Of a stretch of DNA of 43,176 bases, positions 22,601 to 40,637 are shown piece after piece. The notes beneath the pieces are model-generated. The model was not told where the DNA came from, did not search any database, and saw only the letters and a list, made by a program, of their open reading frames with translations. Positions within the stretch are counted from its first letter, which is position 1. The number at the start of each line of letters is the position of its first letter. The translations under genes and the position numbers were made by a program. The DNA comes from a virus, in IMG/VR virus record IMGVR_UViG_3300017986_000047, positions 1-43,176 of that record; one strand, written 5' to 3'.

Positions 22601-25600
22601 CGTCTGAATATTGATAATAACTCTGCAGACTTCTCAATTAATGTCTATGCACCTCGTTATTATGATTCAAATGACAATGCATATTACGGCGACTTCGCAT
22701 CTACATCAAATATGTCTCGTATCGACATCGACGACTTCATTCGTCATAGAGGTGATACAACCACATACTTTGGATTTACCGCCAACGATCAAATCCGTTT
22801 TTTCACTAACAACGCACAACGTGTAAACATCGATAACGATTCAGTAGACTTCCTTGTTGCTGATTACGGAACACTTGCATATCGCAATGTCTTCTACGAT
22901 AGAAATGACACATCGTTCTATATCGATGGTAACTCTGAGTCAAGACTGAATACTCTTCGTCTGAGAAAGACAGGAGATCCAAGCGACGACTTCAATGCAC
23001 TTTGGATTGACAACGGTACTGGTACAGGTGACATTGATACACCTGAGTCGTGGATCAACTTCCAGTTCCAAGACAGCAACGCAAACTTCACACCACAAGT
23101 AAGAATTGGTGCAACAACTGGTTACAACGATGGTTCGTCTTCAGATAACCTTGACAAAGAAGGTTCTGGTAACTTCATCGTTCAGACTGCAGAAGGTACT
23201 GGTGGCGCAGGTGCAGGTGCACTCGCAACAACATTCTATGTAAACTATCGTGGTGACGCATACGCATCTAGATCTATGCGTTCACCAATCTTCTATGATC
23301 ACAATAATGATGCTTTCTTCGGTAACTTCGCTGGTCAGTCTAGAATGTCTACCATTCAACTTGATGACGGTGTAGTTCTAAGATCTCCAAACGGTGATTA
23401 TGGTTCATTTGCAATCACTGGACAAGCACGTGGTGGATACGAAGGTTTCTCAATTAATGACCGCATGGTCTTCATGCATGATAATAACAATCGTGTTGGT
23501 GTATATAACGATGTAGACAACGAGTGGATTTGGTACGCAGACAGAAACGCTGCAATGCGTTTGATGTATAACGGTGGAGAACAATTCCGTACAGAAAATG
23601 GTTATGCGTTTGCACCTAACCAGATGCGTTCACCTATCTTCTACGATTCGAATAACACATCATATTACGCAGACCCTGCATCAACATCGATATTCAACAT
23701 AATGAGAGCCAACCGTTATCAGGTTGATGGATCTACTTACTACATTGATACTGCATCTGGTGACTATGGTTCGATTAGAGTTGAAGGTGCGAAGAACGGT
23801 TGGGCAGGATATGCAATCCGTGACGACTATGTCTTCATGTCAAACGGTGCAAACGAAGTAGGTATCTACAATGATACCGATAACGAATGGATCTTGAAAG
23901 GTTTCAGAAACAATCGTCTGGAACTAATGTACAATGGTGGTGTTCAAGCGCAGACGCAAAACGGTTACTTCGACATGATTAATCAGGCACGTTCGCCGAT
24001 TTATTATGATAGAAATAACACTGGTTACTATGGTGACTTTGCGTCTCATTCACGTATGAGTTCTATCTCAGTTGGTAACCAAGGTGCAATTGCAAATAAC
24101 ACTTATGCAATGTCCTTGTATCATAACAATAGATATATGCTTGCAATTCGTTCAAGTCTTGCAGGATCACAGTATCCTTGGCTTGTAAACGAAAACTGGA
24201 ACGGTTATGATGGAACTGCTCGTGAATCGCTTATTTTCCACTTTAACGCAGTTGGTGATAGATTCTGGTTTGATAAAGCAGGTAACTTTAAAGCATCGAA
24301 ATCTATTACTGCACCAGAAATCAATCTAAACGGTGGTAATGGTAACCTTAACCTTTCACCTGCATATGGTTCTGGTCATGCAGATCAGGTACTATTTGAT
24401 GGTACAGAGTATTTTGACAAACGAGTTACGCAAGCTCTTGCACCTAACGAAAACAGTTTGACAACGTCGACTAGTGAGTTTGTTCGTGCAACAACTGGAC
24501 CATTTGCAGGATCTTATGTACTTCAGACTTCTGGTTACCGTGACTTCTACTCTGCATATATTCCAGTCGAACCAGGCGAAGAACTCTATGGTGAGATTTC
24601 TGTTCGTAGAATTTCAGGTTCGGGTGGTGTTCTTTACTACGGTATTGAACGTTATGATCAAAATATATCTCCAATTGCAGGTAACTCAGGTACAACTTAC
24701 TTTGTTGCAAGTAACGTAAACTATACAAGCACTAATTGGAGTACCTATAGAGGTTATACAACGATTCCATCGAACTGTTATTATGTTCGTATTCGTATTT
24801 TGATGAACTATTCAGGCGGTGGTGCACTGCGTCAATATGCAGGTATCATGTTGAAACGTTCTAACTATCATGGACGTTTGCGTGGTGATGATATTGTTGT
24901 GACAGGTGACGTAACTGCTGATCGTTACTATGATCGTAACGATACGAACTATTATCTAGATCCTGCATCTACTTCTTATGTGAACGATATTCGTTTTAAC
25001 ATTGGGTATGATCGTAACAATACGAACTACTACATCAATCCAGCTTCGACATCACGTCTTGCGAATATTGACATTGCACCTACTTTGTCAAATGGTTATG
25101 CACGTATTCGTTCGATTATGACATCTGGATATCCTGCACTTGAATATAGTGATAGTGCGCCAGGGAACTCTTCTGGTGACCAACACTTTGTTTGGGGTGC
25201 AAACGATACTGGTGCAGGTCGTATGCAACTTCGTTGGAGAGGTGGCACTGCATTTGGTAGTGCATGGTACAGTGAAGGTACACTTCTTGCAGAATTCATT
25301 GGTGACAACAGTGCAGTTAACTTTCCACAAAGTGCGGGCGTTCGTTCGCCTATCTTCTATGATTACAATAATACAGGTTACTATGTAAACCCTGCGTCGA
25401 CTTCTCGTATGGTTCACCTACGTTTGAGTTCTGGTGATTCATATTTGAAAGTTGGTTCGAACGCAGCAACGCAGACAACACGTGATGGTAACAGACCACA
25501 GATTGAAATTGGTGCAAACCATGCGTACCCACACTTTACTCTAAGTTCTTGGGGTACAAATACGAACCACGGTGGGGTGATTTCGTTCCGTTCAAGACGT

Positions 25601-28600
25601 GACTCTTCGAACAACGTTCGTCGTTGGAACATTGGTACTGCAAACTATCAAGCGAACTCACTTGACTTTGGTTACTATGACAACCAAGAAAACCCACACT
25701 ATGGTGTTGGTACAAGTTGGTCACAAGACGCTTACACAAGATTTATCATCCGCACAGGTTACACTGAAGCAAAAGGATCTATGAGATCCCCAATCTTCTA
25801 TGATGTTAACGATACAAACTACTATGGTGACTTTGCATCCACATCTAGATTGAATGATAGTTGGCACAACCAACTTCGTATGCGCAATGGCGGACAGATG
25901 TTGTTCTACACCAATGAAGGTAATGGTGAACAAACAATTCGTGGTTATATTCGTGCAACCTCATCAAATGACGCCCACTTCCAATTTGCAACATCTGGTG
26001 GCGAAGATATTAGATTTATGGATGGTGGTCTGAGTGGTACGTGGAACATGATCATCCGTGGCGATGGTGATACTCTAATTAACCGCAACATCTATGCTCA
26101 AGTTTTCTACGATAGAAACAACAGCGGATACTACACAAATCCTGCTTCTACTTCTCGTATGAATGTTGTCACTGCCGATCAGTTTAACATGGCTGATCGT
26201 GGTGATTGGATCACATTCTATGGTGATGATTCAACATATCATGGGATTGCATCTCGTGATAGTGGTGGTAGTACTTCGGATGACATCCGTATCAACACAT
26301 ACGGTAGTTTGTTTATCAACCTAGACTCAAACAATAACAACAGTTCAGGTGCAGACTTCCGTATTGGTCGTCATGGTGCTGCAACTGGTACAATTTCTAA
26401 CTTTGGATTGTTTGATGTTTATGGTGACGCATTGTATGTCTACACTGGATACAGCTTCCGTGCGCCAATCTTCTACGATTCGAACAACACTGCTTATTAT
26501 GTAGATCCGGCAGGCACCTCACGTCTTGCAAACATCACTGCAAACTTCCTACAGTTCGACAATGGATTTGACATCTACGACGATGACGCTGATACACTGA
26601 GTATTCGTTCAAACAACTCTGATCATGGTGAAATCATTTTCCGTGACTCCAACTCCACTGCATGTGGACGTATCTATTGGGATGATGACGGACAACACTT
26701 CGGTTTAAGACATGCTAATAACGAGTGGGGTATATATCTATACGAAAATTCCCATACTTACATTTATTACAATGGTAGATGGGAAGCTCGTGCAGATAGC
26801 GGTTACTGGCGTTCTGAAAGATCATCTCGTGCACCTATTTTCTATGACTTGAATAACACGTTCTACTATACGAACCCTGCAAGTACTTCTAGATTGAATG
26901 CTGCAGAATTCTATGGTAAAGCGTACTTCTATGCACGTCAAAATGACTCTGCAGGATCTCACTCTTCATATGACGTTACAGGTACTGACTATCTAAACAA
27001 CGTGGCGGCAGAATTCTGGTCAGGTAACGATGCGCCTGTAACGATTTACTTCCGTTCTGGTGTTAACGCACCATCAGACCACGCTTACATTACGTTTGAT
27101 CCAGACTTCAACAACACTGGTGAAAACGCTGCACTTGTACTTGGTGTTGATAACGATGGTACAGGTTCTTCGGACTACATTCGTCTACAAGGTCGTGTAG
27201 AACTTCACTCAAACCTTTCTTCTTCTGACAACTCAGAGATGCAGGGTTGGTGGTATCAGACTACAAAGTATGCTCGTCTAAACACAGATTACTTTGATCA
27301 TATTTCTGATATTCGTTCGCCTATCTTCTACGATAGAAACAATACTGGTTACTATGTAAACCCTGCAAGCACTTCGAACTTGAACACTGTTCTCATCAAC
27401 AGACTTCGTCTTGATGACGGCGGTTCTTCTGGTCACCTTTACACTGATGATACCTATTTGGATCTACGTTATGGTGCAACAGGTGGCGGTGGTGTTCGCC
27501 TCTACGACAGTCAAGGTCAACTTCAGGGTTACTGGTATGGTTCTGGCGGTGGCGAACACGGTCTTTTGGATAATGATGGCGCATGGGCAGTTCGTGTTAG
27601 AACAAGTACCAACCCACTAGAACTTCGTTGTAACAACAACACGGAATTCTATGTGTATACTTCTTACACATATTCGCCTGGCTCATCTCGTGCCCCAATC
27701 TTCTATGATGCAAATAATACTGGTTACTACTTCGATGGTGCGTCGACTTCACGTTCGAACTACCATAGAATTAACAACCTGTATGACTCGCAAGAACGCA
27801 GATACACTTCACCAAATGGTGGTACATATACTACAACATCAAGTTCTGTAACTGGTGCAATTCGTATTGGTCTACCAAGAAGTAGATATCGTTCTGCAAC
27901 CATGATGAAGTTCAAGGTTACGGTTTACGAATACTCAACAGGTAGAATGCATGAGTTCATAATCGGTGGTTACAACTACTCAGGAGACAACAACTGGTAT
28001 AACGAATCTGCAACCCAGTTGACAGATGATAACCGTGGAGCCTATACAGTTCGTTGGGGTAGAGAAAACTTCTCTGGTGGTAACAGAGATGTTGTTTGGA
28101 TTGGTGAATCTAATTCTAGTTGGTCTTATCCACAAGTTCATGTTCAGTGGATTGATGTTGGTTATTCTGGTTATTCAACTGCATGGGGTCAAGACTGGGT
28201 TATTGGATTTGACTCAAATGGTTTCTCAAATGTTTCTCGCACAAGAACTGCATCCCTAGTTTATACTCTGAACAATAGAGATAACTGGGCATATGATATG
28301 CGTGCTCGTATCTTCTACGACAATAACAACACTAGTTATTATGTAGATCCTAACGGTACGTCACGTCTTGCAAACGTTACTATGAACTTCCTTCAGTTCG
28401 ACAATGGTTTCGACATCTATGATGACGATTCCGATACAATGTCGATCCGTTCAAACAACAGTGACCATGGTGAAATTATCTTTAGAGATAGTAACTCTAC
28501 TGCATGTGGTAGAATTTACTGGGATGATGATGGACAACACTTTGGTTTACAACATGCGAATGGTGAATGGGCAGTTTACATGTATGAGAACTCTCATACC

Positions 28601-29551
28601 TATATCTACTATAATGGTAGATGGGAGGCTCGTGCAGACTCAGGTTATTGGAGATCAGAACGTTCGTCACGTGCGCCTATCTTCTATGACTTGAATAACA
28701 CTGGTTACTACTTTAACGGTGCATCTGATACTTCTGCAGTAGTTAATGGTGGTATTAAGTGGGGTGCAACCAACGCAGAATCTCGTGGCGGTTTCATTGG
28801 TCGTCATGGTTCTAACTCAGGTGGATTGAACACAGATGCGTATCCATCGCCTGGTTACTCTATTGGTTACAGTTACCGTCCATCTGGTACTGGTCTGTCA
28901 AACCACTATGGTTATGGTTATGCGCACACCAACGCATCCTTCTTTAGTCTGTCTGGTCAGTCTGGTTGGGGTTTCTATGTCTCTGCAGACGGTGACGCTC
29001 GTGTTCAGTTGTCTGGTTCAAATGGTACAGTTTCTTGTACAGGTAACGTGGTTGCATATGCTTCAGACGGACGTTTGAAAGAAAATGTAACACCAATCAC
29101 TGAAGCGCTTGATAAACTACATAAGATCCGTGGTGTTGAGTACGACTGGGTAGAAAACATTGAATCAGAATATGATTTCCACCCAACTAAGATGCATGAA
29201 GTTGGTGTGATTGCACAAGAAGTAGAAGCAGTACTTCCAGAAGTAGTTGTTGAAGCACCATTTAATGCTAACTACACAATGCAACTGGGTCGTAAAGCGT
29301 ATAAGAAATACCTAGAAGAACGTGATGGTGAAGAGTGGGATACACTAAAAGCCAAAGAAGAGTTTGAAAAACTCACTAAAGATGAGATGTTAGAGTGGGG
29401 TACAGATCACAAGTACCTAACAGTAAACTATGAAAGAATAACTGCACTTCTAATTGAAGCTGTGAAGGATGTTGATAATAAATATAAGGAAGAAGTGTCA
29501 TCACTTCGTGAGGAAATCGCAGAATTGAAAAAGATGATTTTGAATAAATAA
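19670..29551 (+). CDS. Giant tail fibre with C-terminal S74 intramolecular chaperone
   Basis: About 3293 residues from ATG 19670. A GTG at 19661 is in frame but abuts the GGGGAGA ribosome site, so the ATG is preferred. The N-terminal part (to about 20400) carries TLKVTNDSGSAG, ATLDGLDSIQF and a conserved SETVTIADNILLLNSNVTG block. It is followed by a 6/7-residue TAGN-type repeat (20850-21290), about 20 copies of a RSPIFYDxNNTxYYxxPASTSRL block (21505-28720), and a near-identical module present twice (26539-26870 and 28381-28710). The C-terminal 161 residues are an S74-type peptidase and chaperone, starting at SDGRLKENV and ending in a coiled coil. This family folds trimeric fibres and then cuts itself off between Ser and Asp, here predicted at residues 3132/3133. 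It is the likeliest receptor-binding long fibre; the host receptor is unknown. Confidence 0.85.
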   Translation: MANDKKFIVKNGLQTLGDVLIGTSTDDGVSKLQVDGPTHIEATLPSYPTLKVTNDSGSAGAPIIQFVGPSGALNVENLGTLNDYGIFNSTNGIEFHNGDDGLVFKQNGVARLSIENGNTTFTGLSTTNIEGRRIITTDDEARNGGSFDAATLDGLDSIQFVRSDEDDTMDGSYIITGNLTVFGTTTTISSETVTIADNILLLNSNVTGTPSENAGIEIERGTSTNVSFIWNEAADWWTIGDYALETIEIRSVADNDLLLRAASSGSANVNITGGYGTSYQGLRSAKVGVEGWGEILYNSATKLKGISDGIEATENLDVKGDITIGDNNGAAQIFFDGSGLNNTLYSNNGEIGFLKQNFNYGAYLNSDEDWIVSGNNVAQGNIISEGDITAYDDIVANNNINATNGNITADAGNIAATTGNVTAGNSITAQNNITATTGNIDATAGNVTAGNDVSAGNDVTAANDVTATAGDVTAGQDVIATRDISAGRDANITEDLTANNAYITNDLTADDIISQTINANSAIIGDITANNIVADQDIRSGRFVDNDDDTYFFDGDKASVANTIGIDTYIFHNGDTDTRMGFDGADQISFQTGGTERLNIDNNSADFTVGVYAPTFYDSDDSNYFVNPASASIMSSIYIDDFIYHAQSINDYMGFAAANDWRVTIGSTLKLNVTDAITQSFNNVRAPRYLGASGTTYYLDLDNTGNNTSLAVDGRVQIGNVTDVDRWNDNTGTGGISLASYNGFGGNNNPSIAISGANGAYALMYMNRIDMGNNPFDNSNRYIHFYNDGTGVQKIAGDATGNLNFVPDSDATAVKFWNASADNLFTINGGGAVVVGGESATYGSSDATPVLGSITNNRLHVNGSIQLNGNNDAIVFGRGTSSFLKDEELGFGWGSGWYQTDATYLRVRNNATIYSTGDIQAGNFVSSANTTYFVDPDGTSVLSTIDIDDYIRHRGDVNTYFGFEANDTIRFWTNGTQRLNIDNNSADFSINVYAPRYYDSNDNAYYGDFASTSNMSRIDIDDFIRHRGDTTTYFGFTANDQIRFFTNNAQRVNIDNDSVDFLVADYGTLAYRNVFYDRNDTSFYIDGNSESRLNTLRLRKTGDPSDDFNALWIDNGTGTGDIDTPESWINFQFQDSNANFTPQVRIGATTGYNDGSSSDNLDKEGSGNFIVQTAEGTGGAGAGALATTFYVNYRGDAYASRSMRSPIFYDHNNDAFFGNFAGQSRMSTIQLDDGVVLRSPNGDYGSFAITGQARGGYEGFSINDRMVFMHDNNNRVGVYNDVDNEWIWYADRNAAMRLMYNGGEQFRTENGYAFAPNQMRSPIFYDSNNTSYYADPASTSIFNIMRANRYQVDGSTYYIDTASGDYGSIRVEGAKNGWAGYAIRDDYVFMSNGANEVGIYNDTDNEWILKGFRNNRLELMYNGGVQAQTQNGYFDMINQARSPIYYDRNNTGYYGDFASHSRMSSISVGNQGAIANNTYAMSLYHNNRYMLAIRSSLAGSQYPWLVNENWNGYDGTARESLIFHFNAVGDRFWFDKAGNFKASKSITAPEINLNGGNGNLNLSPAYGSGHADQVLFDGTEYFDKRVTQALAPNENSLTTSTSEFVRATTGPFAGSYVLQTSGYRDFYSAYIPVEPGEELYGEISVRRISGSGGVLYYGIERYDQNISPIAGNSGTTYFVASNVNYTSTNWSTYRGYTTIPSNCYYVRIRILMNYSGGGALRQYAGIMLKRSNYHGRLRGDDIVVTGDVTADRYYDRNDTNYYLDPASTSYVNDIRFNIGYDRNNTNYYINPASTSRLANIDIAPTLSNGYARIRSIMTSGYPALEYSDSAPGNSSGDQHFVWGANDTGAGRMQLRWRGGTAFGSAWYSEGTLLAEFIGDNSAVNFPQSAGVRSPIFYDYNNTGYYVNPASTSRMVHLRLSSGDSYLKVGSNAATQTTRDGNRPQIEIGANHAYPHFTLSSWGTNTNHGGVISFRSRRDSSNNVRRWNIGTANYQANSLDFGYYDNQENPHYGVGTSWSQDAYTRFIIRTGYTEAKGSMRSPIFYDVNDTNYYGDFASTSRLNDSWHNQLRMRNGGQMLFYTNEGNGEQTIRGYIRATSSNDAHFQFATSGGEDIRFMDGGLSGTWNMIIRGDGDTLINRNIYAQVFYDRNNSGYYTNPASTSRMNVVTADQFNMADRGDWITFYGDDSTYHGIASRDSGGSTSDDIRINTYGSLFINLDSNNNNSSGADFRIGRHGAATGTISNFGLFDVYGDALYVYTGYSFRAPIFYDSNNTAYYVDPAGTSRLANITANFLQFDNGFDIYDDDADTLSIRSNNSDHGEIIFRDSNSTACGRIYWDDDGQHFGLRHANNEWGIYLYENSHTYIYYNGRWEARADSGYWRSERSSRAPIFYDLNNTFYYTNPASTSRLNAAEFYGKAYFYARQNDSAGSHSSYDVTGTDYLNNVAAEFWSGNDAPVTIYFRSGVNAPSDHAYITFDPDFNNTGENAALVLGVDNDGTGSSDYIRLQGRVELHSNLSSSDNSEMQGWWYQTTKYARLNTDYFDHISDIRSPIFYDRNNTGYYVNPASTSNLNTVLINRLRLDDGGSSGHLYTDDTYLDLRYGATGGGGVRLYDSQGQLQGYWYGSGGGEHGLLDNDGAWAVRVRTSTNPLELRCNNNTEFYVYTSYTYSPGSSRAPIFYDANNTGYYFDGASTSRSNYHRINNLYDSQERRYTSPNGGTYTTTSSSVTGAIRIGLPRSRYRSATMMKFKVTVYEYSTGRMHEFIIGGYNYSGDNNWYNESATQLTDDNRGAYTVRWGRENFSGGNRDVVWIGESNSSWSYPQVHVQWIDVGYSGYSTAWGQDWVIGFDSNGFSNVSRTRTASLVYTLNNRDNWAYDMRARIFYDNNNTSYYVDPNGTSRLANVTMNFLQFDNGFDIYDDDSDTMSIRSNNSDHGEIIFRDSNSTACGRIYWDDDGQHFGLQHANGEWAVYMYENSHTYIYYNGRWEARADSGYWRSERSSRAPIFYDLNNTGYYFNGASDTSAVVNGGIKWGATNAESRGGFIGRHGSNSGGLNTDAYPSPGYSIGYSYRPSGTGLSNHYGYGYAHTNASFFSLSGQSGWGFYVSADGDARVQLSGSNGTVSCTGNVVAYASDGRLKENVTPITEALDKLHKIRGVEYDWVENIESEYDFHPTKMHEVGVIAQEVEAVLPEVVVEAPFNANYTMQLGRKAYKKYLEERDGEEWDTLKAKEEFEKLTKDEMLEWGTDHKYLTVNYERITALLIEAVKDVDNKYKEEVSSLREEIAELKKMILNK
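20850..21290 (+). repeat. 6/7-residue TAGN-type solenoid repeat
   Basis: Units such as ITADAGN, VTAGNS, ITAQNN, ITATTGN, VTAGND and VTAAND follow each other. An Ile or Val recurs every six or seven residues and an Ala follows two positions later. The pattern suggests a beta-helix or beta-roll shaft. Confidence 0.7.
26539..26870 (+). repeat. Duplicated fibre module, copy 1 of 2
   Basis: About 110 residues starting NFLQFDNGFDIYDDD and ending RSSRAPIFYDLNNT. They match 28381-28710 at all but roughly ten positions, while the DNA differs at many third codon positions. Confidence 0.8.
28381..28710 (+). repeat. Duplicated fibre module, copy 2 of 2
   Basis: Partner of 26539-26870. Shared landmarks are SIRSNNSDHGEIIFRDSNST, CGRIYWDDDGQHFGL, YENSHTYIYYNGRWEARADS and RSSRAPIFYD. 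Copy 2 has GEWAVYMY where copy 1 has NEWGIYLY. Confidence 0.8.
29063..29548 (+). other. S74 peptidase/chaperone domain of the giant fibre
   Basis: It begins SDGRLKENV, the consensus start of the S74 fold, with the predicted cut between Ser (29063-29065) and Asp (29066-29068). The GVIAQEV motif follows near 29203. A charged helix (KEEVSSLREEIAELKK) forms the trimeric coiled coil at the end. Confidence 0.85.
29543..29550 (+). promoter_or_regulatory. Late promoter-like element AATAAATA
   Basis: This matches the looser NATAAATA form described for cyanophage late promoters. It overlaps the fibre stop codon and lies 35 bases before the next start. One base off the T4 consensus, it could be coincidental. 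Confidence 0.35.
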
Positions 29552-29585
29552 ACAGCAAAGTTTAAATTAAATTGGAGAAAAACTT

Positions 29586-30023
29586 ATGTCATATACATAT
29601 TCGTATAAAATTAATAGTGTGAAACTCAAGGATGAAACAAATCACGAAGGCGTAACACTAAACCGTGCAGTATATCAAACATACTGGACTATTACAGGAA
29701 CAAACTCTGCAGGTCAGTCTGCAACTTGGTCAGGTGCAACACCTTTGTCTGCAGCTAATGTGCCTGCAGGATCGTTTGTTGCATTCGAAGACTTAACAAA
29801 CGATATCGTTTCTGGTTGGATTCGTAACATTGTTGAAGCAGATCAAGGATATCTTGATCACATCAACGAACGTCTAGATGATGAAATCGAACGTGAACAT
29901 GGTGGTATTGAAGAAGTAGAAGGTAGTGCGCTGCCATGGGAAACTGCAGATGATCCTGAAGCACCAGAAGGAGGTGCAGAAGATCCCGATCCTGCTCCAG
30001 ATGCAGAAGAAACACCAGAGTAA
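29586..30023 (+). CDS. Small fibre-associated protein with acidic tail, 145 aa
   Basis: The body (about 1-100) reads YSYKINSVKLKDETN, TLNRAVYQTYWTITGTNSAG, SATWSGATPL, FEDLTNDIVSGWI and a helical end. This pattern is shared with the next gene and with short proteins of unknown function found near fibre genes in marine T4-like phages. I recall a DUF-level family but cannot verify its number. The last 40 residues are strongly acidic and Pro-rich, absent from the paralogue. The start ATG follows TTGGAGAAA. It may be a fibre tip adaptor or chaperone; this is inferred from position. Confidence 0.65.
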   Translation: MSYTYSYKINSVKLKDETNHEGVTLNRAVYQTYWTITGTNSAGQSATWSGATPLSAANVPAGSFVAFEDLTNDIVSGWIRNIVEADQGYLDHINERLDDEIEREHGGIEEVEGSALPWETADDPEAPEGGAEDPDPAPDAEETPE

Positions 30024-30034
30024 GGTAATCTAGA

Positions 30035-30373
30035 ATGGCCATTACATATGTTTGGGAAATTGTGAACATGGAGACGAAGGATGAAACCAATTCCAATGGT
30101 GACGTTCTTCAAAACTCTGTTGTTCGTGTTACTTGGAAAAGAACAGGAACAGATGAGACAGGATCCAGTCACAGTTTCCTAAGCAATTCTTGGTTTACAT
30201 CTGCAGATACTTCAGTAGACGATTTTATCAACTTCTTTAGTCTTACAGAAGAAACAGTTGTTGGATGGATTGAAAACAAACTGACTGCAGGCGAAATCTT
30301 AAAAATCGACAATATCATCGAAAGAAGAATCGACAAGAAAAATACTATTGTCAGACAAGTACCTTGGTCTTGA
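30035..30373 (+). CDS. Paralogue of preceding small protein, 112 aa
   Basis: It shares with its upstream neighbour the order aromatic beta strand, KDETNxxGxxL, VxxTWxxTGTDxxG, DDFINFFxLTEExVVGWI and a helix rich in Ile and Glu. It therefore looks like a tandem duplicate without the acidic tail. The function is unknown. It starts 11 bases after the previous stop, with a weak AAGG ribosome site. Its final codons overlap the -35 box of the promoter for the glycan cassette, so late transcripts may read through into that cassette as well. Confidence 0.65.
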   Translation: MAITYVWEIVNMETKDETNSNGDVLQNSVVRVTWKRTGTDETGSSHSFLSNSWFTSADTSVDDFINFFSLTEETVVGWIENKLTAGEILKIDNIIERRIDKKNTIVRQVPWS

Positions 30374-30398
30374 CAAGACACTATTGACGTGATATAAT
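30370..30398 (+). promoter_or_regulatory. Consensus sigma-70 promoter before the glycan cassette
   Basis: TTGACA at 30370-30375, a 17-base spacer, and TATAAT at 30393-30398. Both hexamers are perfect and the spacing is ideal. A second weaker -35 (TTGACG, 30384) lies too close to pair with this -10. The start site would fall near 30405, leaving a leader of about 27 bases with GGAGG before the ATG. Confidence 0.75.
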
Positions 30399-30431
30399 AT
30401 TAGCATTTGAAACATTAATTATGGAGGTGTC

Positions 30432-31466
30432 ATGCACGACATGCATCTTTATGGGCTTGCAACCTTTGCATTAAAGCGAGGCGGTAAGATACATCCCATA
30501 ACTCTCCCCAAAGAACTTACTGGCGAAACAGGGATAATGAACCCTTCCATTTTCATGCATAATGGAAAAATTCTTATGAATGTTCGTCATGTAAATTATA
30601 CCCTTTACCACAGTGAAGGGAAAAAGTGGCCTCACCAGTTTGGTCCACTTGCATACATCCACCCAGAAAACGATGTGACACTCACAACATATAACATCAT
30701 GTGTGAACTTGATGAGAATATGAATGTTGTACATGCAGGGCGTATTAATACTTCTGAACTAGATACAGAACCCACTTGGAACTTCATTGGTCTTGAAGAT
30801 GGGCGACTTTTCTCTTGGGATAATAGACTTTTCCTTTGTGGTGTTCGTCGTGATTGTTATGATGACAAAGGCACTGGTCGTATGGAAATGCAAGAGATTG
30901 AATGGATTGATAATGAGTGGAAAGAAGTTGCACGTCACCCAATTCCTGCACCACCACCAAACGAAACGTATTGCGAAAAGAACTGGGTTCCAGTACTTGA
31001 CATGCCATACCATTTTGTCAAATGGACAAATCCTACAGAAGTAATTAAGTTCAATATAGAAGAGGGCACTACAGAAACGGTGGTACTTGATGAGAGTAAG
31101 AAGATCCCTCTGCCTAGGGATATTCGTGGTGGTACACAAGTTCTTAAGTTAAATGAAAATCAAAGGATTGCAATTACTCACGAGGTTGATTTAGGAAGAG
31201 ACTTCTTTGGGAGAAAAGATGGACACTATGTTCATCGTGCAATTATTTGGGATCATGATTGGAACATCCAACATCACACACAAGAGTTTCACTTTATGGG
31301 AACTCAAACTGATGTGGTAACAGGAAATCAATTTCATATTGAGTTCGCAACTGGTATGATGTTCCACAATAATAAAGTGTATATTTCTTATGGTCTGCAA
31401 GACAACGCAACATTCATTCTTGAATTGCCTATCGATGTCTTCACAGAATTTTTGAGTAGAGGTTAA
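30432..31466 (+). CDS. GH130/GH43-like five-bladed beta-propeller protein
   Basis: 344 residues, typical of a single five-bladed propeller. Landmarks are GIMNPSIF (residues 34-41), GLEDGRLF (120-127, resembling the EDxR catalytic-Asp motif of GH130 phosphorylases), EKNWVPV (182-188), FVKWTNPTEVIKF, RGGTQVL and a closing FATGMMFHNNKVYISYG strand. GH130 enzymes break beta-mannosides with phosphate, and related propellers are hydrolases. Here the activity and sugar are inferred, and a non-catalytic glycan-binding role is possible. No signal peptide is seen, so it should act in the cytoplasm. The start ATG lies four bases after GGAGG; ATG 30441 is an alternative with longer spacing. It is the first gene behind the sigma-70 promoter and is separated by one base from the methyltransferase. 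Confidence 0.65.
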   Translation: MHDMHLYGLATFALKRGGKIHPITLPKELTGETGIMNPSIFMHNGKILMNVRHVNYTLYHSEGKKWPHQFGPLAYIHPENDVTLTTYNIMCELDENMNVVHAGRINTSELDTEPTWNFIGLEDGRLFSWDNRLFLCGVRRDCYDDKGTGRMEMQEIEWIDNEWKEVARHPIPAPPPNETYCEKNWVPVLDMPYHFVKWTNPTEVIKFNIEEGTTETVVLDESKKIPLPRDIRGGTQVLKLNENQRIAITHEVDLGRDFFGRKDGHYVHRAIIWDHDWNIQHHTQEFHFMGTQTDVVTGNQFHIEFATGMMFHNNKVYISYGLQDNATFILELPIDVFTEFLSRG

Positions 31467-31467
31467 T

Positions 31468-32694
31468 ATGAGTCTGCAAGAACTATTAAATGAACACGTA
31501 CTTGATCCAAAAAACACATATAAAATGTTTGATCTTGCACGTGAGTATGATAAATTAGAACAAGGTGCTGCAGCAGTATCTTTCTACATTAGATGTGCAG
31601 ATCTCGAAGAAGAAGATAAAGAACTCCAATATAAGTGTATGATTTATTGTGCGCTTGCATATGATAGACAGGGTGGACGTAATTATACAGTGACAGGTTT
31701 GTTGCAACATGCGATTAGTATTCTTCCAACTCGTCCAGAAGCTCATTACTTTCTTGCGAAACATGGAGAAAAGATTACTGACTGGCGTATTTGTTTAAAT
31801 CACGCACTACTTGGTTTGGAGTTTAGAGACAAAAACGATATTGGTATTGATTGGCCTGGCGAAAAAGAACTCTGGTATATGAGAGCGCTTGGAACATGGC
31901 AGATCTCTGGTGTTGAACATGGTCGTCAAATGTTGTTTGATTTGATATATAGAAGAGAATTCAAAGCAGAACAAAGTTTTACAAACTGGGTGACAACCCT
32001 TCTAAACGAAAAGATTGGATGGCCTGATGCGGTTCCTTACAGGGGCGAAGACAGGAGTATGTTTGCTGTTCAATTTGATGGTATAGAAAACATTAAGAAA
32101 AACTATTCAAAACATTTACAAGACATGTGGGTACTTGCATGTTTGAATGGTAAACGCAATGGTACTTACTTAGAGATTGGCGCAGGTAATCCATATACTC
32201 ACAATAACACTGCACTATTGGAAACGGAATTCGATTGGAAAGGTATTTCTATTGAATGGTCTGCACATCTAGCTTATGACTTTGCGCAAAGAAGATCTAA
32301 TACTATCATTAATGCAAATGCGTTAGAAATAGACTTCGAAGATCTTTTGGTAAAACACTGTATGGAAAACACAATTGACTTCTTGCAAATTGATACAGAT
32401 GAAACATCCATTCAAGTCTTAAGAAATATGCCTTTCCATAGATACAAATTTAATGTCGTCCAGTTCGAACATGATGCGTATAGACTTGGTAATGAAATTC
32501 GTGCAGAAGCAAGACAGATAATGAAAGACAATGGATATGAGATTGTTTGTCAGAATCTTTGTTTTAGACCAGACATGGAATATGAAGATTGGTTTGTTCA
32601 TCGATCAATTATAGACAAAATTCCAAATGAACTGCATAGAGGTTCTGAAAAGAATTTCTTCTGGGATTATTTAATGTGGAGAAAAGGAGACTAA
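31468..32694 (+). CDS. TPR-like plus FkbM-type SAM methyltransferase
   Basis: 408 residues in two parts. Residues 1-120 are helical repeats (LAREYDKLEQGAAAVSFYIR, CALAYDRQGGR, LLQHAISILPTRPEAHYFLA) resembling TPR units found before glycan enzymes in marine phages. Residues 200-400 form a Rossmann methyltransferase: TYLEIGAGNP (233-242) is the SAM-binding glycine motif, followed by SIEW, then FLQIDTDE (305-312) and VVQFEHD (330-336), as in FkbM enzymes that O-methylate sugars. The substrate is unknown, presumably a glycan made or trimmed by the adjacent genes. It lies one base after the propeller gene and two bases before the next enzyme, so all three appear to be one operon. Confidence 0.7.
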   Translation: MSLQELLNEHVLDPKNTYKMFDLAREYDKLEQGAAAVSFYIRCADLEEEDKELQYKCMIYCALAYDRQGGRNYTVTGLLQHAISILPTRPEAHYFLAKHGEKITDWRICLNHALLGLEFRDKNDIGIDWPGEKELWYMRALGTWQISGVEHGRQMLFDLIYRREFKAEQSFTNWVTTLLNEKIGWPDAVPYRGEDRSMFAVQFDGIENIKKNYSKHLQDMWVLACLNGKRNGTYLEIGAGNPYTHNNTALLETEFDWKGISIEWSAHLAYDFAQRRSNTIINANALEIDFEDLLVKHCMENTIDFLQIDTDETSIQVLRNMPFHRYKFNVVQFEHDAYRLGNEIRAEARQIMKDNGYEIVCQNLCFRPDMEYEDWFVHRSIIDKIPNELHRGSEKNFFWDYLMWRKGD

Positions 32695-32696
32695 GT

Positions 32697-33455
32697 TTGA
32701 AAATTGTTGTGGTTACTGGGGGATTTGATCCACTTCATAGTGGACATATCGCATACTTTGAATCTGCAAAGTTTTTAGGTGATCGATTAGTTGTTGGTGT
32801 AAATAGTGATGATTGGTTGCAACGTAAGAAGGGCAGATATTTCATGCCTCAAAAAGAAAGAGCGTCAATCATTCGTGCATTAGAAGTAGTTAATTCAGTA
32901 GTGCCTCTTAGTAGTGAGATGGATGGTGATGATAGTTGTAAGAAATTTTTGGAATACATGTGTGCGCACAATCAAGAAGATGAGATTATCTTTGCTAATG
33001 GTGGAGATAGAAATTCTGGCAACATACCTGAAATGGAAGTTGCGGCTTCGAATTTATCTTTCAAATTCGGAGTGGGTGGCGAAGATAAAAAGAATTCTTC
33101 GTCGTGGATACTAAGTAACTGGGAGAAACCCACAACCCAAAGAAATTGGGGTAAATATCGAGACTTAGATCAAAACGGTCATTGGAAGGTAAAAGAACTT
33201 TCAATTGAAACATCACTAAGTGACCAAAGACATTTTCACAGGTCCGAACACTGGCACATTGTTGACGGCGAATTGCAAATGGATCTAGAATATTTAAATG
33301 GATATAAAACAACAAAAATTTATACTTCAGGAGAAAGTATTGACATTCCAAAAAAAACTTGGCACAAAGCGTCAAACGTTGGGCACTATCCGTGCAAAGT
33401 AATTGAGGTTTGGATGGGAGATCAATTATCTGAAGAAGACATAGAGCGGCGTTGA
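32697..33455 (+). CDS. Sugar nucleotidyltransferase fused to ManC-type cupin
   Basis: 252 residues from a TTG codon. AGGAGA lies six bases upstream of that TTG and the preceding gene stops two bases before it; GTG 32676 is in frame but lacks a ribosome site. Residues 1-140 are a nucleotidyltransferase: GGFDPLHSGH (8-17, the HxGH site), GDRLVVGVNSD (28-38), NGGDR (101-105) and SSSWIL (134-139). It resembles the HldE/RfaE adenylyltransferase half and related cytidylyltransferases. Residues 148-252 are a cupin like the C-terminal isomerase of ManC: NWGKY, QRHFHRSEHWHIVDG (177-191, metal-binding histidines), IPKKTWH and VIEVWMGDQLSEEDI. Predicted role: activating and possibly isomerising a phosphosugar. 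Which sugar cannot be told. The gene ends the glycan cassette. Confidence 0.75.
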   Translation: MKIVVVTGGFDPLHSGHIAYFESAKFLGDRLVVGVNSDDWLQRKKGRYFMPQKERASIIRALEVVNSVVPLSSEMDGDDSCKKFLEYMCAHNQEDEIIFANGGDRNSGNIPEMEVAASNLSFKFGVGGEDKKNSSSWILSNWEKPTTQRNWGKYRDLDQNGHWKVKELSIETSLSDQRHFHRSEHWHIVDGELQMDLEYLNGYKTTKIYTSGESIDIPKKTWHKASNVGHYPCKVIEVWMGDQLSEEDIERR

Positions 33456-33463
33456 TATAAATA
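33456..33463 (+). promoter_or_regulatory. T4-type late promoter element TATAAATA
   Basis: An exact TATAAATA directly after the stop of the glycan cassette, 37 bases before the gp13 ATG. A near copy, TATAAATC, follows about ten bases later. It probably restarts late transcription for the neck and packaging genes. Confidence 0.65.
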
Positions 33464-33500
33464 TCTATAAATCTAATTAGAAGTTCACAGGGAACACGTC

Positions 33501-34244
33501 ATGGCACAGCCAGTTAATAGACAAGAATTTATAGAGTACATCCTAAGAAAAATTGGTGCACCAGTTATAGAGGTGAACGTTTCGGACGATCAGGTAGAAG
33601 ACCGTGTAGACGAAGCGGTTTCCTTTTGGCGTGACTATCACTACAATGGTAGTCAACTTGTATATCTAAAACATCAAATCACTCAAACCGACATCAATAA
33701 CGGATACTTCCCCCTTCCTGCAAATATACTTGGTATCTCAAAAGTATTTGATTTGAAATCATCTATTTCTGCAGGATCAGGCGCATTCAATGTAACCTAT
33801 CAATACGTTTTGAATAACGTTGCAGATATCACAGGGTATGACGTTGCAAACTATTACATGACAATGTCTCATCTAGAACTTCTTCAAGATATGCTTGTTG
33901 GTCAACCAATGGTCAGATATAACAAGCACGTCAACAGACTTCACATTGACATCACTAAAGATTTGTTTGTTGTTGGTGATTATATTGTCATCGAAGCATA
34001 CGATGTAATCGATGCTGGCACTTATCCAGATGTGTGGGGTGACCGTTGGTTACAGAACTATGCATCTGTTTTGGTACGTGAACAGTGGGGACTGAACTTG
34101 ACTAAGTTCGTAAACATGCAACTTGTTGGTGGTGTCCAATTTAACGGAGAACAAATTTTACAAGAGGCTCGTGCAGAAAGAGAAAAGATGGAAGAAGATG
34201 CAATTCAAAGTCTTCAACCACTCACATATAACTTTATTGGTTAA
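33501..34244 (+). CDS. 13: gp13 neck protein (head completion)
   Basis: 247 residues, somewhat shorter than T4 gp13 (about 309). Characteristic stretches are FIEYILRKIGAPVIEVNV, DQVEDRVDEAVSFWRDYHYNG, FPLPANILGISKVF and DVWGDRWLQNYASVLVREQWG. In T4, gp13 and gp14 join the filled head to the tail by forming the neck beneath the portal. The assignment is supported by its position immediately before gp14, gp15, gp16 and gp17. The start ATG follows CAGGGAA. It is the first gene after the late promoter box. Confidence 0.9.
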   Translation: MAQPVNRQEFIEYILRKIGAPVIEVNVSDDQVEDRVDEAVSFWRDYHYNGSQLVYLKHQITQTDINNGYFPLPANILGISKVFDLKSSISAGSGAFNVTYQYVLNNVADITGYDVANYYMTMSHLELLQDMLVGQPMVRYNKHVNRLHIDITKDLFVVGDYIVIEAYDVIDAGTYPDVWGDRWLQNYASVLVREQWGLNLTKFVNMQLVGGVQFNGEQILQEARAEREKMEEDAIQSLQPLTYNFIG

Positions 34245-34247
34245 AAC

Positions 34248-34958
34248 ATGGCAACTTCAACCTTCTTCCGCAACACCACACATTTCAATGAACAACAACT
34301 CATTGACGACTTAGTTATTGAGTCGATTAAAATCTATGGCGTTGACATTGAATACTTGCCTCGTTTCGCAGGGTCCGTAGACAACATCCTTAACGAAGAC
34401 GACACACCTCTATATAATACTGTATATAAGATGGAGATGTATGTCAAGAGTGTCGATGGATTTGAGGGAGAGGGTGACTTCCTGTCTAAGTTTGGACTAC
34501 AGATCAGAGATCAAGTTACTTTCTCTGTGGCTATTAGAACATTTGAAAGATATGTCACTAAAGAAGATTCGACAAGACAACGTCCATTAGAAGGGGATAT
34601 TATTTACTTCCCAATCAATGGTAAACTATTTAAAGTCATGTACGTTGAACATGAGAGTGTGTTCTATCAAAGTGGCGCACTACAAGTGTATGACTTACGT
34701 TGTGAATTGTTAGAGTACAGTAACGAAAGAATTGAAACTGGTTACAACCATATTGACAAAATTCTTAAAGATTACACAACAAGAGTTGGTGGTACTTCAA
34801 ATACAAATACATTGGAGGCACTTGCAAACGCAGATCCAATTGCTGACAACTTCTTCTTCGAAAAAACTGCAGACGACATCATTGACTTCACAGAAATGGA
34901 TCCGTTTAGTGAGACGATCAATTTCGCAGATGATGAACCACCTAAGGCGAATACCTAA
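34248..34958 (+). CDS. 14: gp14 neck protein (head completion)
   Basis: 236 residues, close to T4 gp14 (256). Typical N-terminus: FFRNTTHFNEQQLIDDLVIE followed by IKIYGVDIEYLPR. The middle contains FGLQIRDQVTFSVA and GDIIYFPINGKLFKVMYVEH. It forms the neck with gp13 and receives the completed tail. It begins three bases after the gp13 stop without a strong ribosome site, and its TAA overlaps the gp15 ATG (TAATG), so all three are probably translationally coupled. The C-terminus is acidic. Confidence 0.9.
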   Translation: MATSTFFRNTTHFNEQQLIDDLVIESIKIYGVDIEYLPRFAGSVDNILNEDDTPLYNTVYKMEMYVKSVDGFEGEGDFLSKFGLQIRDQVTFSVAIRTFERYVTKEDSTRQRPLEGDIIYFPINGKLFKVMYVEHESVFYQSGALQVYDLRCELLEYSNERIETGYNHIDKILKDYTTRVGGTSNTNTLEALANADPIADNFFFEKTADDIIDFTEMDPFSETINFADDEPPKANT

Positions 34959-35779
34959 TGGCAATAGCAAATTATTTTTACAACGAAACAACAAGAAAGT
35001 ATGTCGCAATTTTTGGGACATATTTCAATCAACTTAAAATCAAAAGAACTATCGATGCTAACACAGAGCAGGAAATGATAGTTCCTATTTCTTATGCGCC
35101 CTTCCAAAAAATTCTTGCACGGATAACACAGGATGCAAATCTTGATCGTCCAACTGCAATCACTTTGCCTCGCATGTCATTCGAATTGAACAGCATGACA
35201 TATGATGGCGAACGAAAAATTAATCCCACAACCAAGATCCGAAAACAAACCATTGAAGATGGTTCAAATGGTCGTGGGTATGTTTACGCAGGTGTTCCAT
35301 ATAATTTGGAATTCTCTTTGTACATCATGACTAAGTACTCAGAAGATGCTGCAAAAATTATGGAACAGATTGTTCCTTTCTTTAACCCCGATTTCACATC
35401 AACGGTAAAGTTGATGGATAATCTCGAACCGATTGATGTTCCTCTTGTTTTAAACAGTGTAAGCACAGAGGAAGTGTATGAAGGAGACTTCACCGAAAGG
35501 CAGAGTGTTCTTTATACTTTAAGTTTTACTATGAAAGCGTGGTACTTTGGACCAAATAGAACAAAACCAGTCATCAAATTTGTAGATGTAAAGTTAACAC
35601 AAAATACAAGTCCAACCGCCGATATTGACGAGGTCTGGGAAACCAGATTCACAACACAGCCTGGTTTGACCGCTAACGGCGAACCAACAACTGATATTGA
35701 TGATACTATACCATACACACAGATTGAATTTGACGACGATTGGGGAGTCATCAATCTTATAGAGGTGAATACAGAATGA
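34958..35779 (+). CDS. 15: gp15 tail terminator / sheath stabiliser
   Basis: 273 residues, matching T4 gp15 (272). Landmarks are YFYNETTRKYVAIFGTYFNQL, RITQDANLDRPTAITLPRMS, YAGVPYNLEFSLYIMTKYSEDAAKIMEQI and FTMKAWYFGP. In T4, hexameric gp15 caps the finished tube and sheath and docks the tail to the neck. The ATG overlaps the gp14 stop by one base, and its own TGA overlaps the gp16 ATG (ATGA). The last 25 residues are acidic. Confidence 0.92.
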   Translation: MAIANYFYNETTRKYVAIFGTYFNQLKIKRTIDANTEQEMIVPISYAPFQKILARITQDANLDRPTAITLPRMSFELNSMTYDGERKINPTTKIRKQTIEDGSNGRGYVYAGVPYNLEFSLYIMTKYSEDAAKIMEQIVPFFNPDFTSTVKLMDNLEPIDVPLVLNSVSTEEVYEGDFTERQSVLYTLSFTMKAWYFGPNRTKPVIKFVDVKLTQNTSPTADIDEVWETRFTTQPGLTANGEPTTDIDDTIPYTQIEFDDDWGVINLIEVNTE

Positions 35780-36366
35780 TAGATGATAAAATTTCACAAT
35801 CAATGGGGGTACGTTCACTTGCAGAAACTCAAGCAGAAGACACTACAGAACCACATGAGAATGTTGGATCTCTACGAGGACTCGGATCTAGTGGAGAACA
35901 AAGTCAAACTGACGAGGATAGACAACCGAACGCACAGGTACTGGCGGAACCTGAATTGGAGAAAAATTCGCAAACAGAAGGATCGCAGACGGAGGCGAAC
36001 GATCTGCAAATTGTTGAAGGAGAGGTACGATCACTTTCAACGACAAACGATGAAAATTTAAATGACATCGAACTCGCCAGATCTAACGTCCAAAGTATCA
36101 TAGAACTAGGCGATGATGCTGTAAAAGAAATGGTCGAGATCGCCAAACAATCGGAATCACCTCGTGCATTCGAGGTGGTTTCGACACTTATGAAAACATT
36201 ACTTGATGCAAACAAAGAGTTTGTAAATATTTCTTCCCAAAAGAAATTAGTTAAAGACGAAGAACAGTATGGCCGTCCTGAAACCAATGTAACGAATAAT
36301 AACTTGATCGTCTCTACTGCAGACCTACTAAGTATGATTAAAGGTGAGGGTAATGCCAATAATTGA
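35776..36366 (+). CDS. 16: gp16 small terminase subunit
   Basis: 196 residues from ATG 35776, which overlaps the gp15 stop as ATGA with AGAGG upstream; an upstream in-frame TTG (35740) inside gp15 is rejected. The first 100 residues are polar and low complexity, rich in Glu, Gln, Thr and Asn. The C-terminal half, about residues 105-160, holds the conserved helices of the family (DAVKEMVEIAKQSESPRAFEVVSTLMKTLLDANKEFV). In T4 the gp16 oligomer recognises concatemeric DNA and stimulates the gp17 motor. It is longer than T4 gp16 (164) because of the polar N-terminal part. Its end overlaps the gp17 start by 14 bases. Confidence 0.88.
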   Translation: MIDDKISQSMGVRSLAETQAEDTTEPHENVGSLRGLGSSGEQSQTDEDRQPNAQVLAEPELEKNSQTEGSQTEANDLQIVEGEVRSLSTTNDENLNDIELARSNVQSIIELGDDAVKEMVEIAKQSESPRAFEVVSTLMKTLLDANKEFVNISSQKKLVKDEEQYGRPETNVTNNNLIVSTADLLSMIKGEGNANN

Positions 36367-37981
36367 TGCCTTAACGAGAGGGTATCTTGGTAACAACAAC
36401 CTTAAAAGGGTTGGAGAACAAATAGAATACACACAAGAGATGCTCAAAGAGTATATGAAGTGTGCCCAAGATCCCATCTACTTCGCAAAGAATTATATCA
36501 AAATCGTACACGTTGACAAAGGTCTCGTGCCTTTTGACATGTATGATTACCAAGAAGATATCGCAAATAAAATTGCTAACCATAGACGTGTCGCAGTTCT
36601 AACTGCACGACAGTCTGGTAAGACAACAACTGCAACTGCAGTCATTCTTCACTACATTCTATTCAACGAATTCAAGACGGTTGCAATCCTTGCAAACAAA
36701 GGTGACGCTGCACGAGAAGTTATGGCGAGAGTCAAACTTGCATACGAAGCGTTACCTAAGTGGATGCAACAGGGCGTCGAAGAATGGAACAAAGGTAATA
36801 TCGCATTAGAGAATGGGTGTCAAATTCTCGCAGGTACAACATCCTCTAGTGCAATCCGTGGTAAATCTGTTAACTTCCTGTATTTGGATGAGGTTGCATT
36901 TATTGAAGGATATGATGAGTTCTTCGCATCTGTGTATCCTACAATCTCATCTGGTGAGTCGACAAAACTGTTGATGACATCCACACCAAACGGTTTGAAC
37001 CACTTCTGGAAAACCTGCAAGGGTGCAGAAGAAGGAACCAACGGATACGAATTTGTCAAGGTCATGTGGAATGACGTGCCTGGCAGAGATGAAAAGTGGC
37101 ACCAAGAAACCTTGGAAGCTCTTGATTATGACGAACAGAAGTTCAGACAGGAATACTGTTGTGAGTTTCTGGGAAGTTCTGGTACATTGGTTAATGGTGC
37201 AAAGTTGAAAGAACTCGCACCATCACGTCCTATTGCAGAACAAGACAATCTATTCCAGTATGAAAGACCAGAAGAAGGTCGCACATATGTGATGACTTGT
37301 GACGTTTCTCGTGGTAAAGGATTAGACTATTCTACATTCTGTGTTATTGACATCACTGAGATGCCTTACAAACAAGTTTGTGTCTTTAGAGATAATATGA
37401 TAACACCAGTTGATTTCGCCTCAATTATATATAGAGTAGGAATGTTGTACCATGAAGCAGCAGTACTGGTGGAAATTAATGACATTGGTGAACAGGTTTC
37501 AGATGTCTTATTAATGGATTATGGTTATGAAAACATTCTATATACAGAGAACGCAGGTCGAGCGGGCAAGAGGATATCAGCGGGGTTTGGCCGTGGCGTT
37601 GACAATGGCATAAGAACAACAAAAAGTGTAAAATCTGTTGGATGTTCTATTTTGAAAATGTTGGTAGAACAGAACCAACTGATTTTACAAGATTTTAATA
37701 CAATTCAGGAATTATCACGTTTTTCTAAAAAAGGAAGCTCTTACGAAGCGGAGTCTGGTTCACATGATGATTTGGTAATGAATTTGGTAATTTTCTCGTG
37801 GTTGACGGATCAGTTATACTTTAAAGACATGACGGATATCAATACCATGATGATGTTGAGAGAGAAGACAGATGAAGAAATTGAAGAAGGATTATTACCC
37901 TTTGGATTCATCGATGTGGGGGAAGATTTGCCTCAAGGCGGATTCCAACCTGTGAATGGTGACGACGACTGGATATTTTAA
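36353..37981 (+). CDS. 17: gp17 large terminase (packaging ATPase-nuclease)
   Basis: 542 residues from ATG 36353; an in-frame GTG at 36344 lies within the GGTGAGG ribosome site and is less likely. Residues 84-92 (TARQSGKTT) are Walker A, 175-180 (FLYLDE) Walker B with the catalytic Glu, and 209-214 (TSTPNG) the coupling motif. The C-terminal RNase H-like nuclease shows Asp317 (TCDVSRG), Glu374 (VLVEIND) and Asp472/Asp473 (ESGSHDD), the expected acidic triad. The enzyme cuts concatemers and pumps DNA through the gp20 portal. It is shorter than T4 gp17 (610). No intron or intein is seen. The start is nested in the gp16 tail, suggesting coupled translation. Confidence 0.96.
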   Translation: MPIIDALTRGYLGNNNLKRVGEQIEYTQEMLKEYMKCAQDPIYFAKNYIKIVHVDKGLVPFDMYDYQEDIANKIANHRRVAVLTARQSGKTTTATAVILHYILFNEFKTVAILANKGDAAREVMARVKLAYEALPKWMQQGVEEWNKGNIALENGCQILAGTTSSSAIRGKSVNFLYLDEVAFIEGYDEFFASVYPTISSGESTKLLMTSTPNGLNHFWKTCKGAEEGTNGYEFVKVMWNDVPGRDEKWHQETLEALDYDEQKFRQEYCCEFLGSSGTLVNGAKLKELAPSRPIAEQDNLFQYERPEEGRTYVMTCDVSRGKGLDYSTFCVIDITEMPYKQVCVFRDNMITPVDFASIIYRVGMLYHEAAVLVEINDIGEQVSDVLLMDYGYENILYTENAGRAGKRISAGFGRGVDNGIRTTKSVKSVGCSILKMLVEQNQLILQDFNTIQELSRFSKKGSSYEAESGSHDDLVMNLVIFSWLTDQLYFKDMTDINTMMMLREKTDEEIEEGLLPFGFIDVGEDLPQGGFQPVNGDDDWIF

Positions 37982-37992
37982 ACTTTTGTTTT

Positions 37993-38000
37993 TATAAATA
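37993..38000 (+). promoter_or_regulatory. T4-type late promoter element TATAAATA
   Basis: An exact late box in the 70-base gap after the terminase, 51 bases before the gp18 ATG. The gap is otherwise AT-rich and ends in AAAGGAG. It likely gives the abundant sheath and tube transcripts. Confidence 0.7.
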
Positions 38001-38051
38001 AAAACAGTGATATGAACTGATAAAAAATAAATTTATTCAAAGGAGAAAAAT

Positions 38052-40073: not shown

Positions 40074-40086
40074 GGAGAGGTAAGAT

Positions 40087-40620: not shown

Positions 40621-40637
40621 TTATAGGATGAATTAAA

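Follow-up and report, generated by a model that had tools for sequence, protein, structure and literature searches.

A conserved three-gene cassette of predicted sugar enzymes, preceded by a host-type promoter, between the fibre and neck genes of a T4-type phage

The window analyzed here, a 43-kb virus fragment (43,176 nucleotides; IMG/VR record IMGVR_UViG_3300017986_000047) of a T4-like aquatic phage, holds the fibre, neck, sheath, terminase, and portal genes of a T4-type late module, which surround a cassette of three genes, all on the plus strand, whose products carry domains of glycan-type enzymes. Gene 1 (30432..31466) encodes a divergent GH130/GT108 five-bladed beta-propeller of 344 amino acids with invariant residues N37, E122-D123, H250, Y266, and D324. 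Gene 2 (31468..32694) encodes a TPR domain (approximately residues 1-190) fused to an FkbM-family methyltransferase (approximately residues 200-405). Gene 3 (32697..33455), which starts with a TTG codon and has an AGGAG site just upstream, encodes an HxGH nucleotidyltransferase (residues 1-142) followed by a putative type-II phosphomannose isomerase (PMI) cupin (residues 146-251) with the motif SxQxHxxRxEHW. The cassette starts 58 nucleotides after the end of the second of two DUF7936 genes and ends 45 nucleotides before gp13. These coordinates, with gaps of 1 nucleotide between genes 1 and 2 and of 2 nucleotides between genes 2 and 3, bear out the three tightly packed open reading frames (ORFs) that a first-pass annotation of the window had placed between the fibre genes and gp13. 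Upstream lies a perfect sigma-70 type promoter (30370..30398, plus strand), consisting of TTGACA at 30370-30375, a 17-nucleotide spacer ending in TGA, and TATAAT at 30393-30398; its -35 box and the stop codon of the preceding DUF7936 gene overlap. A T4-type late promoter motif for gp13, TATAAATA (33456..33463, plus strand), starts one base after the cassette end. The cassette is thus flanked by a host-type promoter of its own on one side and by a late promoter on the other. Its G+C and third-position G+C contents match those of its neighbours, so it is not a recent foreign insert.

The AlphaFold model of gene 1, built from 14 phage sequences (predicted local distance difference test score, pLDDT, 78; predicted template modelling score 0.83), was compared with the PDB using Foldseek. 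The first 43 rows were of GH130/GT108 type, and the top matches were all mannoside phosphorylases (E 1e-9). The structural Z scores were 20.5-23.1 for GH130, 17.4-18.0 for the GT108 of Leishmania, and at most 17.2 for GH43. Of the GH130/GH43-like propeller initially proposed, the GH130 part therefore stands and the GH43-like label was dropped. A sequence-profile search of the PDB with gene 1 gave nothing useful, its single match (E 0.28) being an antibody chain, and the link to GH130 came only from the fold comparison and from hhalign. The latter aligned the gene 1 profile over its full length with genuine GH130 sequences from Bacteroidota genomes (E 1.6e-6), so that N37, D123, and D324 fall on the FNP, G-ED-R, and C-terminal Asp positions of GH130, and H250 and Y266 sit in the aligned C-terminal region. 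In BF0772, Asn73, Asp131, and Asp344 hold mannose in subsite -1, and within the GH130_NC cluster phosphorylases as well as hydrolases have an equivalent of Glu122 (PMC4264767). The residues N37, E122, D123, H250, Y266, and D324 are invariant among 102 gene 1 homologues.

The identity of gene 1 to the solved GH130/GT108 structures is only about 13-15%, and its model contains a low-confidence insertion of 25 residues near the active site (residues 57-82). Both features would suit a protein modification that does not involve mannose, in which the propeller now handles a different sugar or serves as a scaffold and the TPR-FkbM protein is the working methyltransferase. The invariance of N37, D123, D324, H250, and Y266 in all 102 sequences argues for a retained catalysis on a mannose-like sugar and against such a drift, which we consider very unlikely.

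GH130 and GT108 have a common fold and mechanism, GH130 phosphorylases being reversible and GT108 enzymes transferring mannose from mannose 1-phosphate (Man-1-P) or GDP-mannose (GDP-Man) (PMC8950772). Members of this superfamily form beta-mannosides from either donor (PMC8950772, PMC4264767). According to its model, gene 1 is a predicted mannoside phosphorylase or mannosyl-transferring enzyme, and it can itself be the mannosyl-transferring enzyme of the cassette. The initial statement that the window holds no glycosyltransferase, and that the pathway is thus incomplete, is probably wrong, since gene 1 falls in a superfamily that can transfer mannose. Among predicted viral structures, the gene 1 fold is also found in uncultured phages and giant viruses, and several of the giant-virus proteins bear names of glycan enzymes (fucosyltransferase, pyruvyl transferase, LicD). 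Propeller genes were also observed in nine bacterial or archaeal contigs of metagenome-assembled genomes (L182-L190), at least some of them with DUF7936-sized genes upstream, and these are thus most likely phage contigs binned with cells.

The methyltransferase assignment of gene 2 is supported by Pfam PF05050 (FkbM; 27.6 bits, cut-off 22.7) and by an alpha/beta methyltransferase domain in the model (pLDDT 90). The N-terminal half of this model is all-helical, and residues 1-185 superpose on TPR structures (root mean square deviation, rmsd, 2-4; Z 15-17). TPR Pfam models match the relatives of gene 2, in agreement with the TPR plus FkbM-like methyltransferase described previously. A full-length likeness to OGT/SPY was rejected, because the rmsd exceeds 20 and the TPR part alone is comparable.

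Gene 3 matches PF01467 (47.6 bits) and PF01050 (76.2 bits, cut-off 23.6) on one ORF, confirming the nucleotidyltransferase-cupin fusion. The isomerase motif is found in 70/73 cupin homologues, its core persisting in the other three, and the HxGH motif is kept in 68/68 nucleotidyltransferase homologues. The catalytic residues of type-II PMIs are Ser, Gln, His, and Arg (PMC9602691), and the cupin of gene 3 is, by its intact catalytic motif, a predicted type-II PMI. The layout of gene 3 resembles that of ManC, yet its N-terminal half is an HxGH transferase, i.e., a member of another family. The bifunctional ManC/AlgA assignment (GMP-PMI, TIGR01479) was rejected, as the match reached 65.6 bits against a cut-off of 372.95 and covered only positions 358-460 of 467. 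An HldE/RfaE heptose-1-phosphate adenylyltransferase (TIGR02199) was likewise discarded (64.4 bits, equivalog cut-off 181.5). The closest stand-alone relatives of the nucleotidyltransferase domain lie in the cyanophage replication module, between DNA polymerase and uvsX, and the domain was thus probably recruited separately. In the T4-like cyanophages that carry these stand-alone relatives (L222, L223, L224), a sugar role is not obvious.

The gene order of the window (DUF7936, DUF7936, propeller, TPR-FkbM, nucleotidyltransferase-cupin, and gp13) is retained in close relatives. With the propeller as the only query, 77 loci were retrieved; in 72 of them the TPR gene is at most 150 nucleotides away, and 2 more have both fused in one ORF (74/77). 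The nucleotidyltransferase-cupin gene is also kept in 45 of the 64 loci with enough sequence to score it. When loci were fetched by gp13 and had at least 3.5 kb upstream, the full set was found in 15/20, and at least the methyltransferase and the nucleotidyltransferase-cupin in 18/20. Pairwise distances correlate best between propeller and TPR (0.91), followed by propeller and gp13 (0.77) and propeller and cupin (0.57), indicating a two-gene core with a third gene that is more freely exchanged. The three genes are thus co-inherited, as proposed, not as a strictly tight trio but as a tight propeller and TPR-FkbM pair with a looser nucleotidyltransferase-cupin. The pairing in 74/77 loci and the glycan-type domains are at odds with a set of genes that never travel together or that have unrelated functions.

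Fusions point in the same direction as far as the pair is concerned. The propeller, TPR, and methyltransferase form a single ORF in two loci (L024 and L025), and in other loci the TPR domain is fused to a GT25 (L023, L171, L174) or a GT17 (L165) glycosyltransferase. That one TPR adaptor is combined with such varied sugar enzymes suggests that these act on a protein target they share. An apparent fusion of TPR-methyltransferase and nucleotidyltransferase-cupin (L186) was rejected because the ORF crosses a masked N gap.

The pair is also linked to fibres in distant phages whose backbones are unrelated. A collagen-like fibre is encoded directly or closely upstream of it in L017, L022, L026, L164, L169, L170, L172, L174, and L177, and the collagen-like fibres that precede it in freshwater-type contigs and cyanophages have up to 188 Gly-X-Y triplets. 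In Synechococcus phage DSL-LC02 fibre genes flank the pair on both sides yet run in the opposite orientation, so co-transcription alone does not explain the linkage. The neighbours in these phages encode GT2, GT7C, GT11, GT17, and GT25 glycosyltransferases, other methyltransferases, radical-SAM/SPASM proteins, and DUF6445 proteins. For instance, the pair is followed in L168 (8919-11965) by a radical-SAM/SPASM protein, a GT25, and a DUF6445 protein; similar DUF6445 and SPASM domains are also present in DSL-LC02 (L027), and Synechococcus phage S-SCSM2R (L028), an isolate with the pair, has a DUF6445 domain. The radical-SAM/SPASM and DUF6445 proteins are possibly further fibre-modifying enzymes. 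In ten long related records, the classical glycosyltransferase families PF00535 and PF00534 were not consistently present and no GMP-type NTP_transferase (pyrophosphorylase) was found, while sugar-nucleotide epimerase-family genes occur in 8 of the ten. A UDP-galactopyranose mutase (GLF, E 1e-54), an unusual gene for a phage, was observed near an epimerase-family gene in a 101-kb related record (L234, 8014-9018).

A catabolic or storage role would explain these enzymes in another way. The propeller would phosphorolyse a host beta-mannoside or mannan, and the cupin would convert mannose 6-phosphate into fructose 6-phosphate to supply the carbon flux of the host, with the methyltransferase and the nucleotidyltransferase only loosely associated. 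In fact, the characterized GH130 enzymes are mostly catabolic phosphorylases (PMC8950772), and phage PMI genes have been read as feeding central metabolism (PMC9602691). Neither the tight pairing and fusion with the TPR-methyltransferase nor the constant location beside the fibres is expected from such a role. Metabolic genes of T4-like phages are, in addition, usually located elsewhere, and we regard this role as improbable.

Within 24000-43176 of the window (19 kb), the cassette promoter is the sole 12/12 TTGACA-17-TATAAT site. The whole window contains 3 perfect sites with spacings of 15-19 where 0.09 would be expected; two of them (15406-15434 and 22515-22542, minus strand) are antisense within fibre ORFs. 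Both hexamers of the cassette promoter are unchanged across five lineages of relatives while the 17-nucleotide spacer varies, so the site is more than chance. In a survey of 98 non-redundant propeller loci, the region upstream of the propeller gene carries a perfect promoter in 13 and a match of at least 11/12 in 18, whereas a match of at least 11/12 precedes the TPR, nucleotidyltransferase, gp13, gp14, gp15, gp17, and gp18 genes in only 2/367 cases. Some of the 13 perfect-promoter loci are near-identical relatives, at least six lineages being represented. The TATAAATA motif precedes 23/56 gp13 and 10/12 gp18 genes but 0/105 TPR genes, and it is a predicted promoter that restarts late transcription for gp13. 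The host-type promoter noticed earlier in the late region is thus corroborated by its perfect consensus, its conserved hexamers, and its enrichment at the propeller gene; likewise, domains, synteny, and promoter survey sustain the broader proposal of a glycan-metabolism cassette with its own promoter that is inherited as a unit.

A promoter of early type, retained in several lineages, would suit enzymes that act while infection is under way, and this brings in the remodelling of the host envelope. Here, cytoplasmic enzymes would mannosylate and O-methylate lipopolysaccharide or capsule precursors, and the changed receptor would block superinfection or re-adsorption of the progeny. The epimerase-family genes in 8/10 related records and the UDP-galactopyranose mutase in one agree with it. 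The cell-wall genes of cyanophage S-SCSM1 (PMC9602691) and the glycosyltransferases of the equivalent pelagimyophage island (PMC7029224) have been interpreted in this way. Nevertheless, the cassette content is nearly constant across presumably different hosts, the compared backbones being of marine alphaproteobacterial type and from freshwater and marine cyanophages, which is odd if the glycan of each host must be fitted. Moreover, the TPR fusions suggest a protein target, and the unit includes neither lipid-linked sugar enzymes nor membrane proteins. We consider envelope remodelling rather unlikely. None of the three cassette proteins has a hydrophobic N-terminal segment, and they show no obvious signal peptide or membrane segment; thus, the trimming of host surface glycan from outside, one of the purposes first imagined, is unlikely.

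Concerning the borders, the two paralogous DUF7936 genes (29586-30373), which consistently precede the cassette in the marine lineage, encode DUF7936 proteins a (29586..30023, plus strand; 145 amino acids; PF25590 36.2 bits) and b (30035..30373, plus strand; 112 amino acids; PF25590 62.4 bits). These could be fibre accessory proteins, or a carrier or reader of the glycan. The downstream border is the gp13 neck protein (head-tail adaptor Ad2; 33501..34244, plus strand; phrog_211, E 5e-39). When the 9.2-kb gp13-gp21 stretch was compared with phages by megablast, no isolate proved closely related at the DNA level. The 3296-amino-acid fibre protein encoded at 19661-29551 contains many repeats of the type FYDxNNTxYYxDPASTSR, and its C-terminal stretch resembles, as judged by eye only, an S74-type chaperone domain.

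In the reading that we favour, and to which we give something near an even chance of being right, the cassette builds a mannose-type glycan and completes it; the most likely bearer of this glycan would be the tail fibre of the phage itself or the DUF7936/fibre complex. The cupin of gene 3, with its intact type-II PMI residues, would interconvert fructose 6-phosphate and mannose 6-phosphate, and alpha-Man-1-P would come from the host phosphomannomutase, as no phage gene for this step was seen. The propeller has the fold and the mannose-site residues to move mannose, with inversion, to a beta-mannoside, either with Man-1-P as donor in a reverse phosphorolysis or with GDP-Man in the manner of GT108; both the synthetic direction and the donor are what we infer. 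With the propeller as the mannosyl-transferring enzyme, no classical glycosyltransferase is needed. The FkbM domain, assigned by family membership, may O-methylate the sugar, and the nucleotidyltransferase domain would activate a second phospho-sugar or polyol. The TPR domain would dock the enzymes on their protein target, as suggested by the relatives that fuse it to the propeller, GT25, or GT17. Finally, the sigma-70 promoter would let the enzymes be made before the late structural genes.

Several observations weigh against this proposal. The GH130 model PF04041 matches gene 1 only partially (231-339) and with 19.8 bits, below the gathering cut-off of 26, so gene 1 is filed as a divergent sister family and not as a Pfam-defined GH130 member. 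The linkage to fibre genes fits host-receptor remodelling as well, in line with the view taken of the pelagimyophage island (PMC7029224). An early-type promoter is not needed to decorate late proteins, and most relatives carrying cassette genes lack a strong sigma-70 site, so the promoter is a lineage trait and not a requirement. In addition, TPRs can act in dimerization rather than in target binding, and the nucleotidyltransferase domain is a poor fit to a simple mannose route.

A bolder form of the proposal, which we put forward as possible though doubtful, is that of a dedicated phage protein-glycosylation system. In it, the propeller would serve as glycosyltransferase, and a mobile TPR adaptor would bring mannosyl, GT25, GT17, and methyl transferases, perhaps together with the hydroxylase-like and radical-SAM-like enzymes of these clusters, to collagen-like and other tail fibres. 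It would be a bacterial-virus counterpart of collagen/OGT-type protein glycosylation, spread across many aquatic T4-like phages.

Sugar genes near fibres are common in phage genomes, but their enzymes and target are rarely defined. Fibre islands with sugar genes have been described before, as have PMIs of phages; what seems to have been overlooked in phages is the propeller enzyme of the mannose phosphorylase/transferase superfamily. A literature coverage that was partial, and leaves such absence unproven, turned up no description of phages in which a GH130/GT108-type enzyme is paired with or fused to a TPR-FkbM protein. Here, synteny and fusion connect a phage-enriched and strongly conserved branch of the superfamily with a TPR-methyltransferase and with fibres, in hundreds of candidate contigs, and public cyanophage labels such as 'mannosyltransferase', 'MGP protein', and 'CcmH/NrfG' hide one system. 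The proposed route is short and testable (PMI, Man-1-P, propeller, O-methylation) and raises the question of whether abundant aquatic phages have mannosylated, methylated tail fibres. If so, receptor recognition would be affected and a new soluble mannosyl-transfer enzyme would become available.

Among known systems, the GH130 mannoside phosphorylases (RaMP1, 5ay9; BF0772, 3was; Teth514_1788/1789) have the same five-bladed propeller, matched over its full length (Z 21-23), and the Asn-Asp-Asp mannose site of gene 1, which also has a Glu before the catalytic Asp, like the GH130_NC cluster. Gene 1 differs from them in its identity of about 13%, its score below the Pfam cut-off, its extra 57-82 insertion, its phage origin, and its pairing or fusion with a TPR-methyltransferase beside fibre genes. 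The Leishmania GT108 enzymes (6q4x, 6q50) share the fold (Z about 18) and set a precedent for mannose transfer with GDP-Man or Man-1-P, but they score below GH130, have a eukaryotic storage-mannan role, and lack a TPR or FkbM partner. OGT and SPINDLY, the best Foldseek rows for gene 2, also combine a TPR superhelix and a sugar-modifying enzyme on one chain; however, only the TPR part superposes (rmsd 3-4, about 165 residues), and the catalytic domain of gene 2 is a methyltransferase. The type-II PMI of cyanophage S-SCSM1 (PMC9602691) has the Ser/Gln/His/Arg isomerase motif in common with gene 3, which differs in being fused to an HxGH nucleotidyltransferase and located in a fibre-side cassette. 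Finally, the host recognition cluster of pelagi- and cyanomyophages, as described in the accessible part of PMC7029224, is a variable island between baseplate/fibre genes and a neck gene, as here, and holds fibres together with glycosyltransferases and radical-SAM cassettes. Compared with that description, the present cassette stands apart in that its three genes are fixed, one of them encodes a GH130-type enzyme, and several lineages have a sigma-70 promoter dedicated to it.

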